A DNA stretch of 64,000 nucleotides, taken from Chryseobacterium sp. ISL-80 (GTDB lineage Bacteria; Bacillota; Bacilli; Bacillales; Cytobacillaceae). The DNA lies in contig JAGGQZ010000006.1 in the NCBI GenBank assembly GCA_018613055.1, positions 671-64,670 on the forward strand. The letters are read 5' to 3'. The position numbers were made by a program, and so were the translations under genes. Of the stretch, positions 42,833 through 52,920 are shown in pieces. The notes under the pieces are model-generated. The model made no database searches. It saw only the letters and a list, made by a program, of their open reading frames with translations, and was not told the DNA's origin. Position 1 is the first letter of the stretch. Every line of letters starts with the position of its first letter.

Positions 42833-43954
42833 CTATCTTACTGCGCAACGATTCGGGCCGATTTCCATTTCCCGCTGTTCTTCGATATCCGGGTTGATTT
42901 TGCCCATATTCGTCTGCCTGATTTCCTGGTAGGAGTTAGGCTGAGGCGGAAGGTTCTCGGTCACTGTCTTCCTGAACTTCTCTTCACTGTCGATTTGCAG
43001 TCCATGGTTCTCGGCATAGAGCACGCCAAGTTTTTCAGACACGCTGCCGTCATCATTCATTTCATTGATGCCCATATAGTGGGCAGGCAGGACAAGCAGT
43101 TCATCGGCAAGCTCCTTATAGCGCTTGTACAAAGTATTCCTCAGATCACCAACCCAGTCCTGTGCCAATCCGGCAAGGTCAGGGCGTCCGATTGAGTCGA
43201 TGAACAGAATGTCACCTGTCAGCAAGTATTGGTCATCTATAATAAACGAAGTACTCCCGATTGTATGACCAGGAGAGTATAAAGCCTGTATCACAGTGTT
43301 TCCAACCTTGATTTCATCGCCATCCTGAAGGGGTTCATATTGGAAGGTAACTTCTTCTGCGTCTTTAGGCGGGAGATAGTATTTAGCCCCCACTTTATCA
43401 GCAAGCTTCTTTCCGCCGGAAATATGGTCAGCATGAAGATGGGTATCAAGAAGGGCAACGAGTTTAAAATCCTTGCCAGTCATGAACTCCTCATACTGTT
43501 CAATCATCCGGTTTGTATCAATAATCCCAGCCTCACCATTGGATTCAACAAGATAGGAAAGACAGCCTTTCCCGATCCGGACGAATTGGTAGAGCGATCC
43601 GCCATTTTTAAGGTCTCCGATTTTTATAGGCTCAAGATGCTCACTCCAGGCTTTCATGCCGCCTTCAATCGAATAGACATTTGAATATCCAGCTTCTTCG
43701 ATCTGTTCGGCAACAAACTCTGAAGAGCCACCTTTTGCACATACGACATAAATCTCCTGATTTTTTGGCAGTACATCCTTTATTGGATCGATCCCTTCAA
43801 GCAGGTCAAAGTATGGCGCATTATGAACTTTTACATTGCGGCCTTCGATTTTCCAATCATCGAAGTCATCCGTATTTCTTGCATCAATGATAAACAGGTC
43901 TTCATGGTTAATGACTTTTCGAACTAATTCTTTTGCTGTAATTGTCTGGACCAT
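42833..43954 (-). CDS. Rhodanese-persulfide dioxygenase fusion, copy 2
   Basis: A 373-aa paralogue of the gene at 27054 with the same length and order: rhodanese (VVCAKGGSS) then ETHE1-like MBL domain ([37 protein letters not shown]) and the identical C-terminal [10 protein letters not shown]. It is the last gene of a three-gene operon and has an AGGAGG site. Similarity is high throughout, so either duplication or acquisition of a second sulfur operon explains it. Confidence 0.9.
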
Positions 43955-43981
43955 TTCATTCCTCCTGTTATGCTTTGATTC

Positions 43982-44371
43982 TTAGAATGTCAATGTAATG
44001 TCTGCATCGCTTGCAAAGTGAAGGAAAGAAGCTGCTCCGCCAACGTCAATACCATCAACGAACTGGTCTTTTTGAAGAGACATTACGTCCATTGTCATCT
44101 GGCAGGCAATCATCTTGACGCCCATTTCAGCTGCCATTTCAACAAGCTGTTCAACTGGAGGAACGTTTTCTCTTGCGAAACCTTCCTGGAAGTGCTCAGT
44201 TCCTGCTGGCATAGGAAGTTGCTTATGCGCTTCCTTATGGATCAGGTTAAGCCCTTCGAATGTAAAGAAGATTCCTACTTCTGCGTCTGTTGCTGCTGCC
44301 GCAGTCGCGATATTGAATACTTTATATGCATCGAACATTCCGCCGTTAGAGGCGATGATAGCTACTTTCAT
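43982..44371 (-). CDS. DsrE-like sulfur relay protein, copy 2
   Basis: A 129-aa DsrE-like protein with active Cys in KMIACQMTMDVMS. It lacks the middle insert found in the 159-aa copy at 28825. It lies between the TusA-rhodanese and the dioxygenase fusion, whereas copy 1 heads its operon. AAGGAGGA site before the ATG. Confidence 0.88.
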   Translation of the reverse strand: MKVAIIASNGGMFDAYKVFNIATAAAATDAEVGIFFTFEGLNLIHKEAHKQLPMPAGTEHFQEGFARENVPPVEQLVEMAAEMGVKMIACQMTMDVMSLQKDQFVDGIDVGGAASFLHFASDADITLTF

Positions 44372-44385
44372 TATTTGGTTCCTCC

Positions 44386-44964
44386 TTATTTTTCAACTGA
44401 TGTTTCCGTCGGGCCTGTCCAGTCCTTCATCCCGGAAACAACATTAATTGGTTTCTTGAATCCTTTTTCAGCAAGCTTCTTCGCTGCCATATCACTTCTT
44501 GATCCGGAGCGGCATATGATATAGACATCCTCTTCAGGATCCAATTCATTAAATCGCTGCTCCAGTTCTCCAAGCGGAATCGATTTTGCATTCGGAATAT
44601 GGCCAAAAGCATATTCAGCAGATTCCCTTACATCGAGAACCGTTACCTTCTCTTCGCCTTCCAGTTTTGCCAACACTTCTTCAAGTGTGGCTGTATGAGG
44701 GTGTGGCGATTCATTGTTCAGTTCATCTTCACTTGCTTTACGGACATAATGCTTTAGCACATCTCCATCCGTGATTGTACCGAGATATTGATTGCCTGTA
44801 CTTTGAGCCCATGCTTTAAGATCTGTTGTAGATCCTTTGTCAGTCGCCTGCACTTCAATAACCTGTCCAGGTTCCATCTCATTCATGGATTTCTTCGTTT
44901 TGACAATCGGCATCGGGCACGCAAGTCCTTTTGCGTCCAGTACTTTATCCGCAGAAATTGACAT
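44386..44964 (-). CDS. TusA-rhodanese fusion, copy 2
   Basis: A 192-aa protein with TusA domain (KGLACPMPIVKTKKSM) and rhodanese domain (IICRSGSRSDMAAKK), the same architecture and length as the gene at 28220. It is the first gene of the second persulfide operon, 75 bp downstream of a TATACC-N6-GGTA operator. Confidence 0.92.
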   Translation of the reverse strand: MSISADKVLDAKGLACPMPIVKTKKSMNEMEPGQVIEVQATDKGSTTDLKAWAQSTGNQYLGTITDGDVLKHYVRKASEDELNNESPHPHTATLEEVLAKLEGEEKVTVLDVRESAEYAFGHIPNAKSIPLGELEQRFNELDPEEDVYIICRSGSRSDMAAKKLAEKGFKKPINVVSGMKDWTGPTETSVEK

Positions 44965-46285: not shown

Positions 46286-46852
46286 TTACATCCTCCGTTT
46301 TCTTTTCTTCGTTGTCCAATAATAGTAGCAGACACCCACCACAACCGCAAAGACCGTCATTGACAGCTGGTACTCTGTTTTCCAGCCCAGCAAGGTGTGG
46401 ACCGAATAGGATTCAATAAAGAGTGCAGGAATTTTACCAATCGTACTCGATACCATAAATGCAGGTGCGCCCATTTTGCTGTAAGAGGCAGCAAGCGTCA
46501 CCAATCCTGAAGGTGCGAAAGGGAAAAGCCGCAATAATATCACCAGTATAAACGCCTCTGTGCCAGCAGTGCTCTTCAGCCGTTCCAGTCCTTTAATCGG
46601 TTTGGTGCTATTGATTTTTTGCGCCAGTTTTTTTACCCCTTTACGATAAAGAAAAAAGCTGATGATTGCTCCGGCAGCTTCTCCAATGATCGAAAGAATA
46701 AGGCCGCCGCTGAAACCAAAATAAATAATATTAGCAGCTGTCACAAATGCGCTCGGTATAACTCCAAGTATTGAGATTGTTATACTGACCGTCAGACTGA
46801 TCAAAACCGCAATCCAGACCGGCTGTCCAGATAAAGTATCTAATAATGCCAT
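46286..46852 (-). CDS. TVP38/TMEM64 (DedA-like) membrane protein
   Basis: A 188-aa polytopic protein of the VTT domain family, with GEAAGAIISFFLYRKGVKK and the signature LRLFPFAPSGLVTLAASYSKM (key F-P-P-G-L). Members are implicated in lipid scrambling or transport. It is the first gene of a pair with the propeller lipoprotein. Confidence 0.85.
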   Translation of the reverse strand: MALLDTLSGQPVWIAVLISLTVSITISILGVIPSAFVTAANIIYFGFSGGLILSIIGEAAGAIISFFLYRKGVKKLAQKINSTKPIKGLERLKSTAGTEAFILVILLRLFPFAPSGLVTLAASYSKMGAPAFMVSSTIGKIPALFIESYSVHTLLGWKTEYQLSMTVFAVVVGVCYYYWTTKKRKRRM

Positions 46853-46954: not shown

Positions 46955-47215
46955 ATGATGAAAAAACTGTCATTAAGTTTTTTAAGCGCAGCCTTAATCC
47001 TAGGAGCCAGTACAGCCGCCTTCGCGGAGGAAGGAACAGAAGGAAAAGGCATATTCAATTTTGGCCAGATGAAGCCGCTAATCGAAAAAATGCACCCAGG
47101 CTTGTCCGATGAAGAGGTCAAGCAAATGTACAATGACTGCCACGGAACCAATGGTGCTATGCCTAGCAAAAACTTCAATATGATGAATGGAGGCCATATG
47201 GATATCGTTGATTGA
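46955..47215 (+). CDS. Small secreted protein of unknown function
   Basis: An 86-aa protein with a signal peptide (1-24, cleavage after TAAFA). The mature part is about 60 residues with GIFNFGQMKPLIEKMHPG, one Cys (in NDCHGTNG) and a Met/His-rich end. AAAGGAGTTG precedes the ATG. I do not recognise a family; the CH and MNGGHM residues could bind metal or haem but the motif is not CxxCH. Confidence 0.7.
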   Translation: MMKKLSLSFLSAALILGASTAAFAEEGTEGKGIFNFGQMKPLIEKMHPGLSDEEVKQMYNDCHGTNGAMPSKNFNMMNGGHMDIVD

Positions 47216-47386: not shown

Positions 47387-47848
47387 TTAAACTAATCCTT
47401 CACCTTCACAAAGCTGTGACGGCAGGTCGGCTACAATTGTTCCGCTTTGCGAGTGCTGTGAGGGAAGATCTGCTACCAATGTTCCTTCTTGGGCATGCTG
47501 TGATGGCAGGTCGGCTACAATCGTTCCGCTTTGCGAGTGCTGTGAGGGAAGATCTGCTACCAATGTTCCTTCTTGGGCATGCTGTGACGGCAGGTCGGCT
47601 ACAATCGTTCCGCTCTGCGAGTGCTGTGAAGGAAGATCCGCTAACATTGTTCCTTCTTGTGCATGCTGTGACGGCAGGTCGGCTATGGTGACTCCATCGC
47701 CCGAATGTTGTGACGGCAAGTCGGCTATGATTGTACCACTTTGCGAATGTTGGGATGGCAAATCGGCAAGGCTTCTATCTCCAGAATCCACACCTGACAC
47801 ACCAGCAAAAAACGCAGCAATAATGGTCATCAGTAATATTCTCTTCAT
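47387..47848 (-). CDS. Secreted precursor with nine PapR-like heptapeptide repeats
   Basis: A 153-aa protein with signal peptide (about 1-19) and then nine tandem 14-residue units starting at residues 28, 42, 56 and so on to 140. Each is ADLPSQH (the ninth is ADLPSQL) plus a seven-residue linker, alternately SQSGTIV-like and AQEGTLV-like. B. cereus PapR pheromones have the same core, e.g. ADLPFEF. The gene follows a PlcR-like regulator by 41 bp on the same strand, the plcR-papR order. Known PapR precursors are about 48 aa with one copy. That the units are cut to heptapeptides, re-imported and bound by the regulator is inference. AGAGGAGGA precedes the ATG. Confidence 0.85.
   Translation of the reverse strand: MKRILLMTIIAAFFAGVSGVDSGDRSLADLPSQHSQSGTIIADLPSQHSGDGVTIADLPSQHAQEGTMLADLPSQHSQSGTIVADLPSQHAQEGTLVADLPSQHSQSGTIVADLPSQHAQEGTLVADLPSQHSQSGTIVADLPSQLCEGEGLV
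47390..47767 (-). repeat. Nine 42-bp in-frame repeats inside the precursor gene
   Basis: Nine 42-bp units with exact frame. The 3' six or seven units form a homogenised 84-bp higher-order repeat (SQSG and AQEG linkers alternating, with runs identical or nearly so at DNA level), indicating recent unequal recombination or slippage. Copy number is likely to vary between strains. Confidence 0.93.
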
Positions 47849-47889
47849 TGTATCCTCCTCTGCCTATGGCTAAAAAGTTATAATGCGTA

Positions 47890-48777
47890 TCAGCAATATT
47901 TCAATAATTTTTCCATTTCAGTTTCTACTAAGCTCGCAAACTTCTCATTCTTCTGCAGCTTGAAAAGCATGACTGCTTTTTCAAGATATTCCTTGCCTTT
48001 GTTTTCTTTACCCAATTTGATGAAATTCATGCCTGATTGGTAATAAAGTTCTCCAAATAAATACATATTTTCTTCATATATACAATTATCGATGCCTTTG
48101 CTGCAGTATATGAGTGATTCCTCATACCTTTCCAGCTTTGACAACGCCTGTGCGAGACCGTAAAGAATCCTTAGCCAGATGCTTGAATCCTGGACTTGAG
48201 GCAGCTCTGTCAGTTGGTTAAGGGCACTCAGAAAAAGCTCGACTGCCTTGTCAAGGTTCCCGCTGTCCTTTTCAATGATGGCCATACTGGTCAAAATCTC
48301 AATCTCACGTTCGGTCATGCTATCCTGTTCCTGATGAGTCATGGCCAATGCCCCATCCAGCAGGCTGATGGACTTTTGCTTATCTTTATCAAGGTAGTAA
48401 ATACAGATTCCCTGGTGCCAAACTAAAAATTGATCGAAAGACGTATGCTTAAAAAGCGGATTATCCTGCTCCTTTTGGATGATTTCATGAATAGCCGCAT
48501 AATCCCGCTCTCTTTTATATTTTTTAATTAACTCCGTGACAGCGATAGCGTAATTGTATGTATCCGTGGAAGCGATATCGAAAAAATGGTTAAGCTCTAC
48601 TTCAAGCTTTAAAGCCATTTTGTATAATTGATCAATTGTTGGATATTTCTCTTCTTTTTCAAATTGAATGATATCCTCTTCAGAACATATACCTGCAGCC
48701 AACTGTTCCTCAGTCAACCCTTTAAAAACTCTTGAAGACTTAAGTATTTTTCCGAAGTTATATCCAACCAGGCTCAT
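47890..48777 (-). CDS. PlcR-like RRNPP quorum-sensing regulator
   Basis: A 295-aa regulator (PlcR is 285 aa). The N-terminal XRE-type HTH (about 5-60) contains RVFKGLTEEQLAAGICSEED and YPTIDQLYKMALKLEVELNHF, closely like PlcR. Five TPR-like helical hairpins follow (about 70-290), with FDQFLVWHQGICIYYL and LERYEESLIYCSKGI matching PlcR positions. Such proteins bind an imported heptapeptide in the TPR groove and then activate PlcR boxes. The start at 48777 is where PlcR begins; the longer open frame to 49011 overlaps another gene. GTGTAGGG is a modest ribosome site. Confidence 0.88.
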   Translation of the reverse strand: MSLVGYNFGKILKSSRVFKGLTEEQLAAGICSEEDIIQFEKEEKYPTIDQLYKMALKLEVELNHFFDIASTDTYNYAIAVTELIKKYKRERDYAAIHEIIQKEQDNPLFKHTSFDQFLVWHQGICIYYLDKDKQKSISLLDGALAMTHQEQDSMTEREIEILTSMAIIEKDSGNLDKAVELFLSALNQLTELPQVQDSSIWLRILYGLAQALSKLERYEESLIYCSKGIDNCIYEENMYLFGELYYQSGMNFIKLGKENKGKEYLEKAVMLFKLQKNEKFASLVETEMEKLLKYC

Positions 48778-48869
48778 CCCTACACCCCATTTAAACGTAA
48801 TTATATATATTTTATCATAGTGTTTGTAAAATTTAAAAATTTGTAGTGCAGAACTTGAAATAGTGAAAA

Positions 48870-49025: not shown

Positions 49026-50282
49026 CTAATCCCTCACTTCTTCAAGGCTAGGCAGTTTTGTCTGTCGTCCAAATTCACCAAATCGAATGGAGATATTCAC
49101 CTTGACTGCTGCATCAGGATAAGTGTGCATCCAGTCAAATTCACGGAATTCCCGAAGGGTGGCAAACTCTTTCCTCATCGGTATGGATAAATCGAATGTA
49201 TCTCCTTTTAATTCTTCCTGGCTATAGGCAATAAAATCGGTAAAGTTTTTTTCAATTGCAGCCGTAAGAGACTTTTTTAGCTTCTTAACCTTATCCCGGT
49301 TCTTTGCATAATTGGTCATGCTTGGGTCGCTGTATACTTCTATAAATAAAGGAACATCAATTTCAATGGTTGGACGGCCTTTCCCGGTAATCAGTTTAAA
49401 TTTGTTGTCTTTTTTTTGAGAAATTCTTAAGCTTAGCTTATATCTCTCATCAAAAGGATCTTCAATCGCAGTCAAGATATCATCGGTTGTCCATTTATTG
49501 TCTAGTAGACTTGATATCCTAGTCTCTTCCCCAGTTATTTTGCCAACCATCATTCCCTCTTTGAAGACAGCAGATCCAAGGAACTGGGCATTGGCTGTCG
49601 TTCCCTCCACTTTAATCTCACCCGCCATAAGGTCATCGTCCGTTGAATGCATTCCATCTTTTTCCGCCATTTTGGTTGTAGCGTAGATGGCCAGATATAG
49701 GTCTGAATCTGCTTCCGTGACCCGAAAAAAACTATTCAGATCCGCTTCCGGAATCATGCCAGTTTCCTGACCTCTTTCAATCATGAGTTCTAAAAATTTA
49801 TGAGGCCTGGATTCAATTTTTGGATGATTATTTTTTATGAATTCAGCCGCATCCTCCTTAGTGACAATAAATTGTGTACTCCGCTTAATTTCGCGATCCT
49901 TGGTTGCACTATAGATGACCCTGATAAAATCCGGATCTCTGGCTAATTCTTCTGAAACAATGAGAGCCTGAAGCAGATCATAGGATATTTCCTTCGCCAC
50001 AACTGTATTGGCTGTATTGCGCGATGAAATAAAATCATCTGCAACCAAAGTCACGATTTCCTGCGTTGGCTCATTCGCTCCGCCTGAAGTCTGCTGTGAC
50101 CCCACCTCCGGATTGGCAATCAGGTATGTCACACGGAGGTTTCCATCCGGTTTATGCTTATCAAGCCCTATACCAATGACGTATGCTTTATCATCCAGTT
50201 CCTTGTGGTCCCAGCATCCCGACAGGCTCAAAGTAATTGCGGCCAGGATCGTCGCTTTAATTATTATAGAGTGAATTTTCAT
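49026..50282 (-). CDS. Germinant receptor lipoprotein C-subunit (GerAC family)
   Basis: A 418-aa lipoprotein with lipobox LSGC (20-23) followed by the family hallmark WDHKELDDKAYVIGIGLDK. It has the three-domain Ger(x)C architecture and an ending WMHTYPDAAVKVNISIRFGE. It sits on the outer face of the spore inner membrane with the A and B subunits and is needed for nutrient-triggered germination. It overlaps gerB by 26 bp. Confidence 0.93.
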   Translation of the reverse strand: MKIHSIIIKATILAAITLSLSGCWDHKELDDKAYVIGIGLDKHKPDGNLRVTYLIANPEVGSQQTSGGANEPTQEIVTLVADDFISSRNTANTVVAKEISYDLLQALIVSEELARDPDFIRVIYSATKDREIKRSTQFIVTKEDAAEFIKNNHPKIESRPHKFLELMIERGQETGMIPEADLNSFFRVTEADSDLYLAIYATTKMAEKDGMHSTDDDLMAGEIKVEGTTANAQFLGSAVFKEGMMVGKITGEETRISSLLDNKWTTDDILTAIEDPFDERYKLSLRISQKKDNKFKLITGKGRPTIEIDVPLFIEVYSDPSMTNYAKNRDKVKKLKKSLTAAIEKNFTDFIAYSQEELKGDTFDLSIPMRKEFATLREFREFDWMHTYPDAAVKVNISIRFGEFGRQTKLPSLEEVRD

Positions 50283-51366
50283 TTTTAAAATCCCCCCGAA
50301 TTTTTGCTACAACCCACATGAGTGGCGGCAGAATCATAAAGGCAGGACTCAAAACCAAAAGTATTTTTTCCCTTAGGGAGTAGAGAGTGATTGATGGAGC
50401 ATCCGGTGACAATCCAATTAATACGATAATGGTTGCGATCAAGGGAATGAGGTATTCAAACTCCTTAATTTTAAGAACGCCCCCCAGGAATATGGCGATA
50501 AGATATAGATAAAACGAAAAACGGATAAAAGTTGCGACCAGCCAAAAGGGAAAAAATAAGGTTTCAACGTTTGCCAGGAATCCAATTTGGATATAACGGA
50601 TTGTTTCATGGAAAGGATAGTTCAACATTTCAGCAGTGGTATAATCAAATAAAACAACAAACCCCACAAGTGCCAGGCTCAATTCCACTGTGATAAATCC
50701 GAGACTAATGAGGGTGCCTTTTTTCATATCTTTATAAGAAGAAACGATTGGCATGATGAGCGCAAGGAAGAAAAAATCCACAAATATCGAAACATTCTTT
50801 ACGGAGGCTTTTGCTACTTCGAGTGGCCCTTCACCCCAGATGGGGAAAAGATACCCGATTGTTCCTTCCTTAAAAGTAAAGACCAGGGCAATGAACAACG
50901 TAATTTTGATATAGGGGAGCAGTAGCCAGGAAACAGTCCCGATCTGTTCTATGCCCCTCTTAGCTCCATATGCGCAAATAACCATTAAAAGGATGTAAAG
51001 GATAATACTTGGTGTTTTCGTAAAATACATGGACCCAATGATGTCGACATAGGTACCCGAGTCTGCTATCACTGCAGCTGTCCCGCCAATTATCAATAGA
51101 ATAGATAGCATTGTTCCTAAAATTTTACCAAAAAGGTGCAGCAGAATTTCATGCAGGTTTTTTCCTTTATGAGCTGAATACACTTTTATTAATAAAATGA
51201 CCGGAAAAAGTGAAAGAATGCCAATCAGCAACGATGCCATCCAGCCGGCATTTTTGGCATTTTCATAAATAATCGCAGGAGTGTCATCACTTAACTTCGC
51301 CCCAATGGTCAACGAGATGATCGCGAAATATTCTTTTATGCCGATTTTCCCCTTATTTTCCTTCAT
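50257..51366 (-). CDS. Germinant receptor B-subunit (GerAB family)
   Basis: A 369-aa protein with ten or so TM helices of the spore germination/APC superfamily. Features include GAKLSDDTPAIIYENAKNAGW near the N-terminus and LLIGILSLFPVILLI. The B-subunit binds the germinant in this family. It follows gerA by three bases. Confidence 0.93.
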   Translation of the reverse strand: MKENKGKIGIKEYFAIISLTIGAKLSDDTPAIIYENAKNAGWMASLLIGILSLFPVILLIKVYSAHKGKNLHEILLHLFGKILGTMLSILLIIGGTAAVIADSGTYVDIIGSMYFTKTPSIILYILLMVICAYGAKRGIEQIGTVSWLLLPYIKITLFIALVFTFKEGTIGYLFPIWGEGPLEVAKASVKNVSIFVDFFFLALIMPIVSSYKDMKKGTLISLGFITVELSLALVGFVVLFDYTTAEMLNYPFHETIRYIQIGFLANVETLFFPFWLVATFIRFSFYLYLIAIFLGGVLKIKEFEYLIPLIATIIVLIGLSPDAPSITLYSLREKILLVLSPAFMILPPLMWVVAKIRGDFKNENSLYNN

Positions 51367-51369
51367 CGT

Positions 51370-52920
51370 CTATTCTCCATTAGCCTTTTTTTGTAAATCA
51401 GAACTTTTTAAGAAGCCTGGCCTTAATATTTCATTTTTTATCAGCCTGCGGAAAATCGTATCATTCGATGACTTGTAATTTGGTGACATAGGAGCTAAAT
51501 ACGGAACACCAAATGACTTGATTGAAACCATATAGAATAGGCCTCCGACAAACATTGCAGTCATACCATAAATACCCATCACCGCTGCACTCAGGATAAA
51601 TAGAAAGCGCACCAGTCTTACGGCGAAGTTCAAACTTATATCACTAACTGCAAACGAGCTGAGACCACCAAGTGCGACCACAATAATGACAATGGGACTG
51701 ATAATATTCGCTTCAACGGCTGCCTGTCCAAGGATAAGAGCTCCTACAATTCCAATGGTTGGACCTATGGGGCTTGGAACGCGAAGCCCTGCTTCCCTGA
51801 TCAATTCAAATGCCATCTCCATGATTAAGATTTCAATCACCGCGGGAAAAGGAACTTTCTCACGTGAAGCCGCAATTGCCAGCAGTAAATCTGGCGGAAT
51901 CATTTCAGCATGGAATGTGGTGATTGATATGTAAATAGCAGATGTGAAAATCGTAATAAAGAGAGCCGTCATTCTTAACGCTCTCGTAAAATTTCCATAA
52001 AGAAACCTCAGATAATGATCTTCAGGAGTATGGAAAAAAGACCAGAATGTGGCGGGAAGAACGAGACCATCAGGTGAGTTGTCCATTAAAAGGACGATAT
52101 AGCCATCTTCTAAAAAAGAGGCTGCCCTGTCAGGCCTCTCTGTCGAAAGAAGGCTTGGAAATAATGAATAATTCCGTTCCTCAATATATTCCTCAAGCAG
52201 CGATAAGTTCTGGATGGCATTCACTTCAAGACTGCCCAATCGCTTCTTGATGTTGTCAATCAGCTTTTCATTAGCCAAGCCGCGAATATAAAGAACGTAC
52301 ACATCATTGTGGGAACGCTGCGAAACTTCAACGACTTCCACAATCAGGTTCTCATTTTTGATTTTCTTCCGGAGCAGCGAAATATTGACCACTGCTTTTT
52401 CATTGAAAGACTCTTTCGGGCCCTTGATTAAAATTTCACTGTCCGGCTTTTCGATTGCCCTGCCCTGGAAATCAGGACAATCAAGAACGTATCCCCTTGC
52501 TTCCCCATCCAACAGGAGCAGGGCGTTCCCTTTATTCACATCCTTTACAGCATCCTTGAATACGTCTATTTCATGGACCATCTGGATGGAAACGACATCC
52601 TTCACCTGTTTATTTGCTGATGTGTTTTCCGCCAGGGGCTTGAGAATGTTCTCTTCTATACTCTTAACATCCGAAATCGTGCTGATGAAAATGAGGGCAG
52701 CATTTTTCCGAAAGCCCTCAAGATACATTTCGCGTAATTTTACATCTTTATTGTCAGGAATGCTGTACAGTTTCCTGATCACCGACAGATTATTTTCAAG
52801 ATCCGCCGAGAACTTCTGATTCTTTAGGCCAGCCTGCTCTCCCGTCAGTTTGTCCGCTGAGGGAGTAGGTTGTTTCTGCTGTTTTTTGAACAGCCTGAGC
52901 ATTTCTTTTAACATATTCAA
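51370..52920 (-). CDS. Germinant receptor A-subunit (GerAA family)
   Basis: A 516-aa protein. The soluble N-terminal part (1-270) has DGEARGYVLDCPDFQGRAIEKP-type sequence (key RGY and P-E/D) and the membrane part has AIYISITTFHAEMIP and REAGLRVPSPIGPTIGIVGALILGQAAV (key P-x-G-x-T-I-G-I-V-G). It probably forms an oligomeric ion channel. The first start is TTG at 52920; an ATG two codons later is equally possible. The germinant cannot be predicted. A sigma-G promoter is expected but was not located with confidence. Confidence 0.93.
   Translation of the reverse strand: MNMLKEMLRLFKKQQKQPTPSADKLTGEQAGLKNQKFSADLENNLSVIRKLYSIPDNKDVKLREMYLEGFRKNAALIFISTISDVKSIEENILKPLAENTSANKQVKDVVSIQMVHEIDVFKDAVKDVNKGNALLLLDGEARGYVLDCPDFQGRAIEKPDSEILIKGPKESFNEKAVVNISLLRKKIKNENLIVEVVEVSQRSHNDVYVLYIRGLANEKLIDNIKKRLGSLEVNAIQNLSLLEEYIEERNYSLFPSLLSTERPDRAASFLEDGYIVLLMDNSPDGLVLPATFWSFFHTPEDHYLRFLYGNFTRALRMTALFITIFTSAIYISITTFHAEMIPPDLLLAIAASREKVPFPAVIEILIMEMAFELIREAGLRVPSPIGPTIGIVGALILGQAAVEANIISPIVIIVVALGGLSSFAVSDISLNFAVRLVRFLFILSAAVMGIYGMTAMFVGGLFYMVSIKSFGVPYLAPMSPNYKSSNDTIFRRLIKNEILRPGFLKSSDLQKKANGE

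Follow-up and report, generated by a model that had tools for sequence, protein, structure and literature searches.

The window, as we call the whole stretch of 64,000 nucleotides analysed here, lies on contig 33 of a draft genome of 4.75 Mb in 35 contigs; the copy count of the array described below rests on this draft. Its minus strand carries a gene for a PlcR-like regulator and, after a gap of 41 nt, downstream and on the same strand, a gene for a protein made of a leader and nine short repeat units. Judged by the receptor, the nearest named relatives include Mesobacillus boroniphilus, M. selenatarsenatis, M. subterraneus, a strain that carries the label Cytobacillus oceanisediminis and several strains named only Bacillus sp. 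The open reading frames and coordinates of an initial annotation of this DNA were confirmed; of the nine copies of ADLPSQH/L that it had counted, all nine stand as units, but only eight are intact, the terminal His of the ninth being replaced by Leu.

48778..48843, minus strand: region upstream of the receptor gene, by eye with an extended -10-like element TATGATAAAAT, an AT-rich element and a GGGGTG ribosome site
47890..48777, minus strand: PlcR-like receptor (regulator) gene, HTH and TPR/RNPP_C, 295 aa plus stop
47387..47848, minus strand: pheromone precursor gene, nine 14-residue units, 153 aa
47768..47848, minus strand: precursor leader MKRILLMTIIAAFFAGVSGVDSGDRSL, a putative Sec-type signal peptide (by eye, KR followed by a hydrophobic run)
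47747..47767, minus strand: pheromone copy 1, ADLPSQH
47705..47725, minus strand: pheromone copy 2, ADLPSQH
47663..47683, minus strand: pheromone copy 3, ADLPSQH
47621..47641, minus strand: pheromone copy 4, ADLPSQH
47579..47599, minus strand: pheromone copy 5, ADLPSQH
47537..47557, minus strand: pheromone copy 6, ADLPSQH
47495..47515, minus strand: pheromone copy 7, ADLPSQH
47453..47473, minus strand: pheromone copy 8, ADLPSQH
47411..47431, minus strand: copy 9, degenerate ADLPSQL, followed by the tail CEGEGLV

The units are spaced by exactly 14 residues throughout. In the DNA, Tandem Repeats Finder reports a 42-bp repeat together with a higher-order unit of 84 bp, which matches the alternation of SQSGTIV and AQEGTLV spacers. 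Six distinct DNA sequences encode the core in the first eight copies, so that a fresh duplication at the DNA level does not account for the array. A guessed back-translation of the repeat, used as a DNA query, returned only two chance sites with three mismatches.

The receptor and its pairing with the precursor

How closely does the regulator resemble PlcR? Its alignment over the HTH and TPR regions, first drawn by eye, is borne out by phmmer, which matched the PlcR sequences 2qfc, 3u3w and 4fsc at E 7.7e-22 over residues 8-276, and by the Pfam family RNPP_C, which matched at E 5.1e-21 and is found in all 33 receptor relatives scanned. PlcR is the only full-length relative among the PDB sequences; a 33-row profile of receptor relatives reached it at E 2.5e-27 over positions 5-290, all other PDB matches being partial.

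In PlcR, K87 and K89 contact the Glu of PapR and K197 its C-terminus (PMC5007282). The K87 and K89 positions are basic in both of our alignments, as K88 (phmmer) or R89 (profile) for the first and as R91 (both) for the second, with K88 and R89 conserved to at least 90% in alignment A2 and R91 less so; the position of K197 is ambiguous, falling on R203 in the phmmer alignment and on Trp201 in the profile alignment. The window peptide carries Gln at the place of the PapR Glu that K87 and K89 bind. N159 and N201 of PlcR, which we take to be the groove asparagines, are not matched, their positions being Thr163 and Gly207 in both alignments; thus, the anchoring of the peptide probably differs in detail from that in PlcR. 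A main-chain-anchoring asparagine, N226, has also been described for Rap (PMC11343458).

The pairing of the two genes recurs in relatives. Within the genus, a receptor orthologue 73-100% identical to that of the window is present in 20 of 21 genomes, with a repeat precursor directly downstream in all 20; the repeat query matches in the same genomes and, fragments aside, at the receptor locus only, while the remaining genome (G017) has neither receptor nor precursor. The fragments, on G008:C122 at a contig end and on G018:C14, probably continue the arrays of L027 and L030, which break off where their contigs end. A search of 193 genomes of the family gave a receptor match in 97 at 1e-40, and at E<=3e-71 each of 65 loci is followed on the same strand by a precursor of LPxxH type, multi-copy in all but L088. 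Among five weaker family matches examined, L089 has a single downstream copy, and L090 and L093 a divergent upstream gene; at L091 and L092, two PlcR-like receptor genes in tandem, a scan of both sides with a crude leader rule recognised no pheromone gene beside the receptor. In the order, 150 of 397 genomes gave a match at 1e-60, and the best 19 loci outside the family all have a precursor, with an array in eight and one C-terminal copy in 11.

The recurrence of repeat and pairing in orthologues, and copies that differ synonymously around a fixed peptide, agree with the initial judgement that chance is unlikely, and chance or a frame artefact is ruled out because the pairing recurs in relatives. 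The annotation had named homologues lacking an adjacent ADLP-type gene as a check on its reading; neither the 20 genus loci nor the 65 family loci lack one, and this pairing supports, at the level of sequence, its proposal that the two genes form a PlcR/PapR-like pair whose pheromone precursor is multi-copy. Secreted structural proteins often contain short tandem repeats, and the repeats and leader of the precursor would fit an adhesin-like secreted or surface protein whose place beside a regulator is incidental. We regard this as extremely improbable, given the pairing at 20/20, 65/65 and 19/19 loci, the restriction of conservation to a core of five or six residues that resembles the PapR core, and precursors of 28-47 aa with a single copy that occupy the same place beside related receptors (L121-L131).

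Small pheromone genes also accompany most of the paralogous loci. A downstream-only scan of 14 such loci (L015, L035-L043 and L090-L093) had suggested that they have no pheromone gene, a view overturned by scanning both sides under the same crude leader rule: nine have a divergent single-copy gene (L015, L035, L038, L039, L040, L042, L043, L090 and L093) and L037 has a separate gene with two copies of LPYEH, with nothing convincing at L036, L041, L091 and L092. The precursors of the genus paralogues end in DLPFEH (L038, L039, L040 and L043) or DLPNQH (L015 and L035); the former show that the class IV pentapeptide of PapR also occurs beyond the B. cereus group. The receptor gene of L041/L043 is in two parts, separated by about 1.75 kb (G011:C1 4312566-4313069 and 4314824-4315183), as if split by an insertion. 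L015 (G000:C6:124440-128297) lies in the same genome as the window and holds a second PlcR-like receptor at 1480-2370 on the plus strand and, at 1314-1192 on the minus strand, the divergent gene for a precursor of 40 aa that ends in DLPNQH, one residue from DLPSQH. Cross-talk between this system and the window pair is possible.

The conserved unit and the origin of the array

Which part of the repeat is the signal? Array motifs vary between loci, including DLPSQH, DLPTQH, GIPSEH, DYPVQH, DYPSQH, WYPSQH, EMPTQH, GLPTQH and DFPTQH, among others. Across 63 arrays (all but L020 and L088), the mean hexapeptide identity is 0.988 within arrays vs 0.630 between them, and 59 of the 63 hold a single pentapeptide throughout, with one odd copy each in L014, L018, L031 and L050. 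The pheromone thus changes in unison within an array, as concerted evolution would give. The inner variants LPSKH (L031) and LPTQY (L050), in otherwise uniform arrays, are possibly second signals or decay.

In 117 genus copies, where P and the final H were largely fixed by the search expression and only the other positions are informative, S is found in 117, Q in 116, D in 111 and the leading A in 103. The context of the last copy was compared in complete multi-copy arrays, that is, all but L020, L027, L030, L044 and the single-copy loci. Here, 32 arrays end exactly at His, which suggests that this residue marks the mature C-terminus; in these, A precedes the hexapeptide in 2 of 32 last copies vs 55 of 98 inner copies, and the context of the last copy (SPQFSTMGLPTQH in L054, SPAYSTMGIPSEH in L052) resembles that of a single-copy precursor (GDFSTLGLPSQH in L124). 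Another 28 arrays continue with a tail beyond the final His, and in 20 of these the last copy keeps the leading A. Successive units in L071 and L072 can run as GLPTQHGLPTQH, so that the mature peptide there has at most six residues unless copies overlap. On these sequence grounds, the hexapeptide DLPSQH, or the pentapeptide LPSQH, is better supported as the unit fixed by selection than the heptapeptide ADLPSQH proposed initially: DLPSQH is conserved, but the leading Ala is found in only 103 of 117 genus copies and, elsewhere, is lacking in 30 of 32 last copies at the C-terminus. The ADLP core that was said to be shared with PapR likewise holds in part, in L-P and in the His of class IV, but with Ser-Gln where PapR has Phe/Tyr-Glu.

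Inner copies are often flanked by [VIL]-A before and S or G after, flanks that C-terminal last copies lack. Since the long chain must be cut many times, partial products could hold back or rival the mature signal, and the array would then act on timing or sharpness more than on dose; separate proteases have been found to free the individual copies of Phr-3T and Phr-105 (PMC11343458). We nevertheless think a timer or decoy rather unlikely, since spacers shrunk to one to three residues in L069-L072 leave little room for a spacer-dependent delay.

Selection acts on the core. Comparisons between copies of the same array, covering all copies except each array's last, gave in the window a pN/pS of 0.018 for the core vs 0.602 for the spacers. 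Because the eight peptides are identical, the small core pN there is an artefact of the paths between Leu codons. Values were 0.035 vs 0.446 in 16 genus arrays (all but L020, L027, L030 and L034) and 0.017 vs 0.321 in 44 arrays of other genera, where two-copy arrays contribute nothing. The core codons are thus under strong purifying selection.

A quick tree of 97 receptors places the 72 with arrays in one clade (SH-aLRT 99), and a careful tree, of 71 rows, separates 53 array representatives from 18 others with a support of 100/99.7. The careful tree was built without 28 rows that were near-duplicates, split or very long-branched, and keeps L037 outside the array group; the split receptor L041/L043 enters neither tree, and the L090 precursor, which ends in ELPTIF, is unlabelled. 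Outside the array clade lie single-copy, PapR-like relatives and genus paralogues. Within it, the counted reading frame holds at least two copies for 71 of 72 receptors; for the other, L020, a run of N splits the array, with at least four LPSQ units visible, three of them intact. Copy numbers range from 2 to 16 overall, with the largest in L072, whose near relative L071 has six, and from 2 to 12 in the genus, where 17 of 20 loci are complete; these figures come partly from draft assemblies and may be low, arrays being visibly cut in L020, L027, L030 and L044. Within the array set, the careful tree requires at least 21 changes of the pentapeptide and at least 33 of copy number.

The best reading of these sequences is that the array arose once and stayed multi-copy in the sampled descendants. 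In the simplest history, further units would have been inserted ahead of a single C-terminal copy of PapR type in the ancestor; as most tailed arrays keep the A of the last copy, only arrays ending at His bear the trace of such a history. A multi-copy precursor is therefore not always a transient duplication that leads to a new pheromone; it can also be old and kept.

Could the extra copies be passengers of replication slippage, without effect on output, in an ordinary PlcR/PapR system of which only one copy matters? Tandem units of 42 and 84 bp expand easily, and the many changes of copy number in the careful tree would agree with this. However, the purifying selection on the core extends over all copies other than the last, which in the window and in L018 is itself altered, so that inner copies must serve, and no reversion to a single copy was seen among the 72 array-clade receptors. 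We therefore consider passenger copies quite improbable.

Proposed mechanism and relation to known systems

The reading that we hold to be very probable is a quorum-sensing pair of the PlcR/PapR type (RRNPPA), the precursor of which was amplified once and kept, and which would yield more signal per precursor. The course from export through cleavage, import and binding to the effects on dose and regulon we infer as follows. Receptor and precursor genes are probably co-transcribed, and the precursor would be exported by Sec. Proteases outside the cell would cleave each chain ahead of [D/G]-x-P and behind His, so that in the window one chain could release as many as eight identical peptides, DLPSQH or ADLPSQH; an oligopeptide permease of the Opp type would re-import them, and their binding to the TPR groove of the receptor would alter its DNA binding. 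The array would have grown from units inserted upstream of the single C-terminal copy, with copy number and pheromone changing ever since, and its likeliest effect would be more signal per precursor made, that is, a lower threshold or a higher gain.

Precedents exist for several of these steps. In B. thuringiensis, PapR is matured by NprB and imported by Opp (PMC4147580), and both copies of tandem Phr propeptides are reported to be produced and active (PMC11343458). The genome of the window has nine SBP_bac_5 (OppA-type) and two M4 peptidase matches; judged by these, import and protease machinery of the needed kinds exists, though these kinds are common. Internal copies would need two cuts each, which we count against this reading as a whole. 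The PlcR paralogue PlcRa has as its partner PapRa, in which the heptapeptide CSIPYEY is internal rather than C-terminal, implying cutting on the C-side in the PlcR group; there, a single copy is encoded, by a gene upstream of the receptor (PMC3519770).

The closest known system is PlcR/PapR of the B. cereus group (ADLPFEF in class I), where PapR falls into the classes LPFE(F/Y), VP(F/Y)E(F/Y), MPFEF and, as class IV, LPFEH (PMC5007282). Shared with it are full-length receptor homology, a precursor with a leader directly downstream on the same strand, the L-P core, the terminal His of class IV and the basic residues at K87/K89. While PapR is a 48-aa precursor with one C-terminal copy (PMC4147580), that of the window has 153 aa and nine units, with Ser-Gln for Phe/Tyr-Glu, the groove Asn replaced and no palindromic PlcR box at the pair. 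Relatives bridge LPSQH to the PapR core, with IPSEH in arrays and LPYEH and LPFEH in genus paralogues.

Propeptides with several copies are no novelty among RRNPPA systems. Several identical peptides in a propeptide adjoining its receptor, with up to six copies, have been described, and among atypically large propeptides the multi-copy ones number 3/15 for PlcR, 17/17 for NprR, 3/11 for AimR and 5/311 for Rap (mBio 2022, PMC9765709). With nine units, eight of them intact, the window precursor belongs to this type, and some of the three PlcR cases may belong to the array clade. Their processing is called 'a fascinating mystery' and roles for copy number are only proposed, among them 'chattering', more signal per receptor (PMC9765709). 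What is notable here, by comparison, is the scale, with up to 16 copies, and a single origin, with change in unison and a whole receptor clade that, as sampled, is multi-copy (72/72, L020 by its visible units). Tandem copies in one propeptide, conserved far more than the rest, are likewise found in Phr-3T and Phr-105 of Bacillus phages, there with two copies, Rap receptors and demonstrated processing by WprA, Bpr and NprE; the same paper mentions as many as eight copies for Phr (PLoS Biol 2024, PMC11343458). In the open-licence literature we found no paper on the array clade or on its peptides as pheromones, nor an all-array receptor clade of single origin, arrays of 9-16 copies or change in unison.

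Surveys can miss long multi-copy precursors through limits on propeptide size. RRNPP_detector admits propeptides of 10-100 aa (PMC10075063), which excludes the 153-aa precursor of the window, and a structural phylogeny of 2025 starts from its strict set (PMC12700828).

A natural copy-number series is available within one genus, with DLPSQH, receptors that are 73-100% identical to that of the window and 17 complete arrays of 2-12 copies. More tentatively, and with considerable doubt, copy number could be an evolvable gain dial: receptor and pheromone would stay matched across the clade, recombination would set anew how many signals each chain carries (2-16), and homogenisation would let all copies adopt a new pheromone at once. 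If so, quorum threshold and pheromone specificity would evolve by array dynamics and not by mutation of a single copy.

As to regulation, the promoter-like block upstream of the receptor is alike within the genus, and no operator common to different genera was seen by eye. The palindromic PlcR box, presumably TATGNANNNNTNCATA, has its best match upstream of the receptor with two mismatches, and the nearest one-mismatch site in the window lies about 3.5 kb from the pair. A form printed as TATGNANNNNANCATA (PMC4147580) has a single one-mismatch site, which overlaps the -10-like element and is, by eye, weaker in relatives. The genome contains 10 exact palindromic sites vs 4 for a reversed control, and the window seven one-mismatch sites between 21517 and 53622 vs 2.3 expected, a number reached in 1 of 100 shuffles. 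None of these sites lies at the pair, and we propose no PlcR-box regulon.

Around the pair, an operon of the germination-receptor type (by eye, gerA/gerB/gerC-like) lies upstream at 49026-52920 on the minus strand; it is found in L011 as well and is absent at that place in L013, so that its link to the pair is not fixed. Beyond the precursor follow a small secreted-type protein of 86 aa (46955-47215, plus strand) and a membrane protein with, by eye, a VTT/DedA look (46286-46852, minus strand), both with a relative in L011. Farther on, at 42833-44964 on the minus strand, is a cluster of sulfur-carrier, rhodanese and persulfide type, with TusA-like, DsrE-like and MBL-rhodanese genes by eye.
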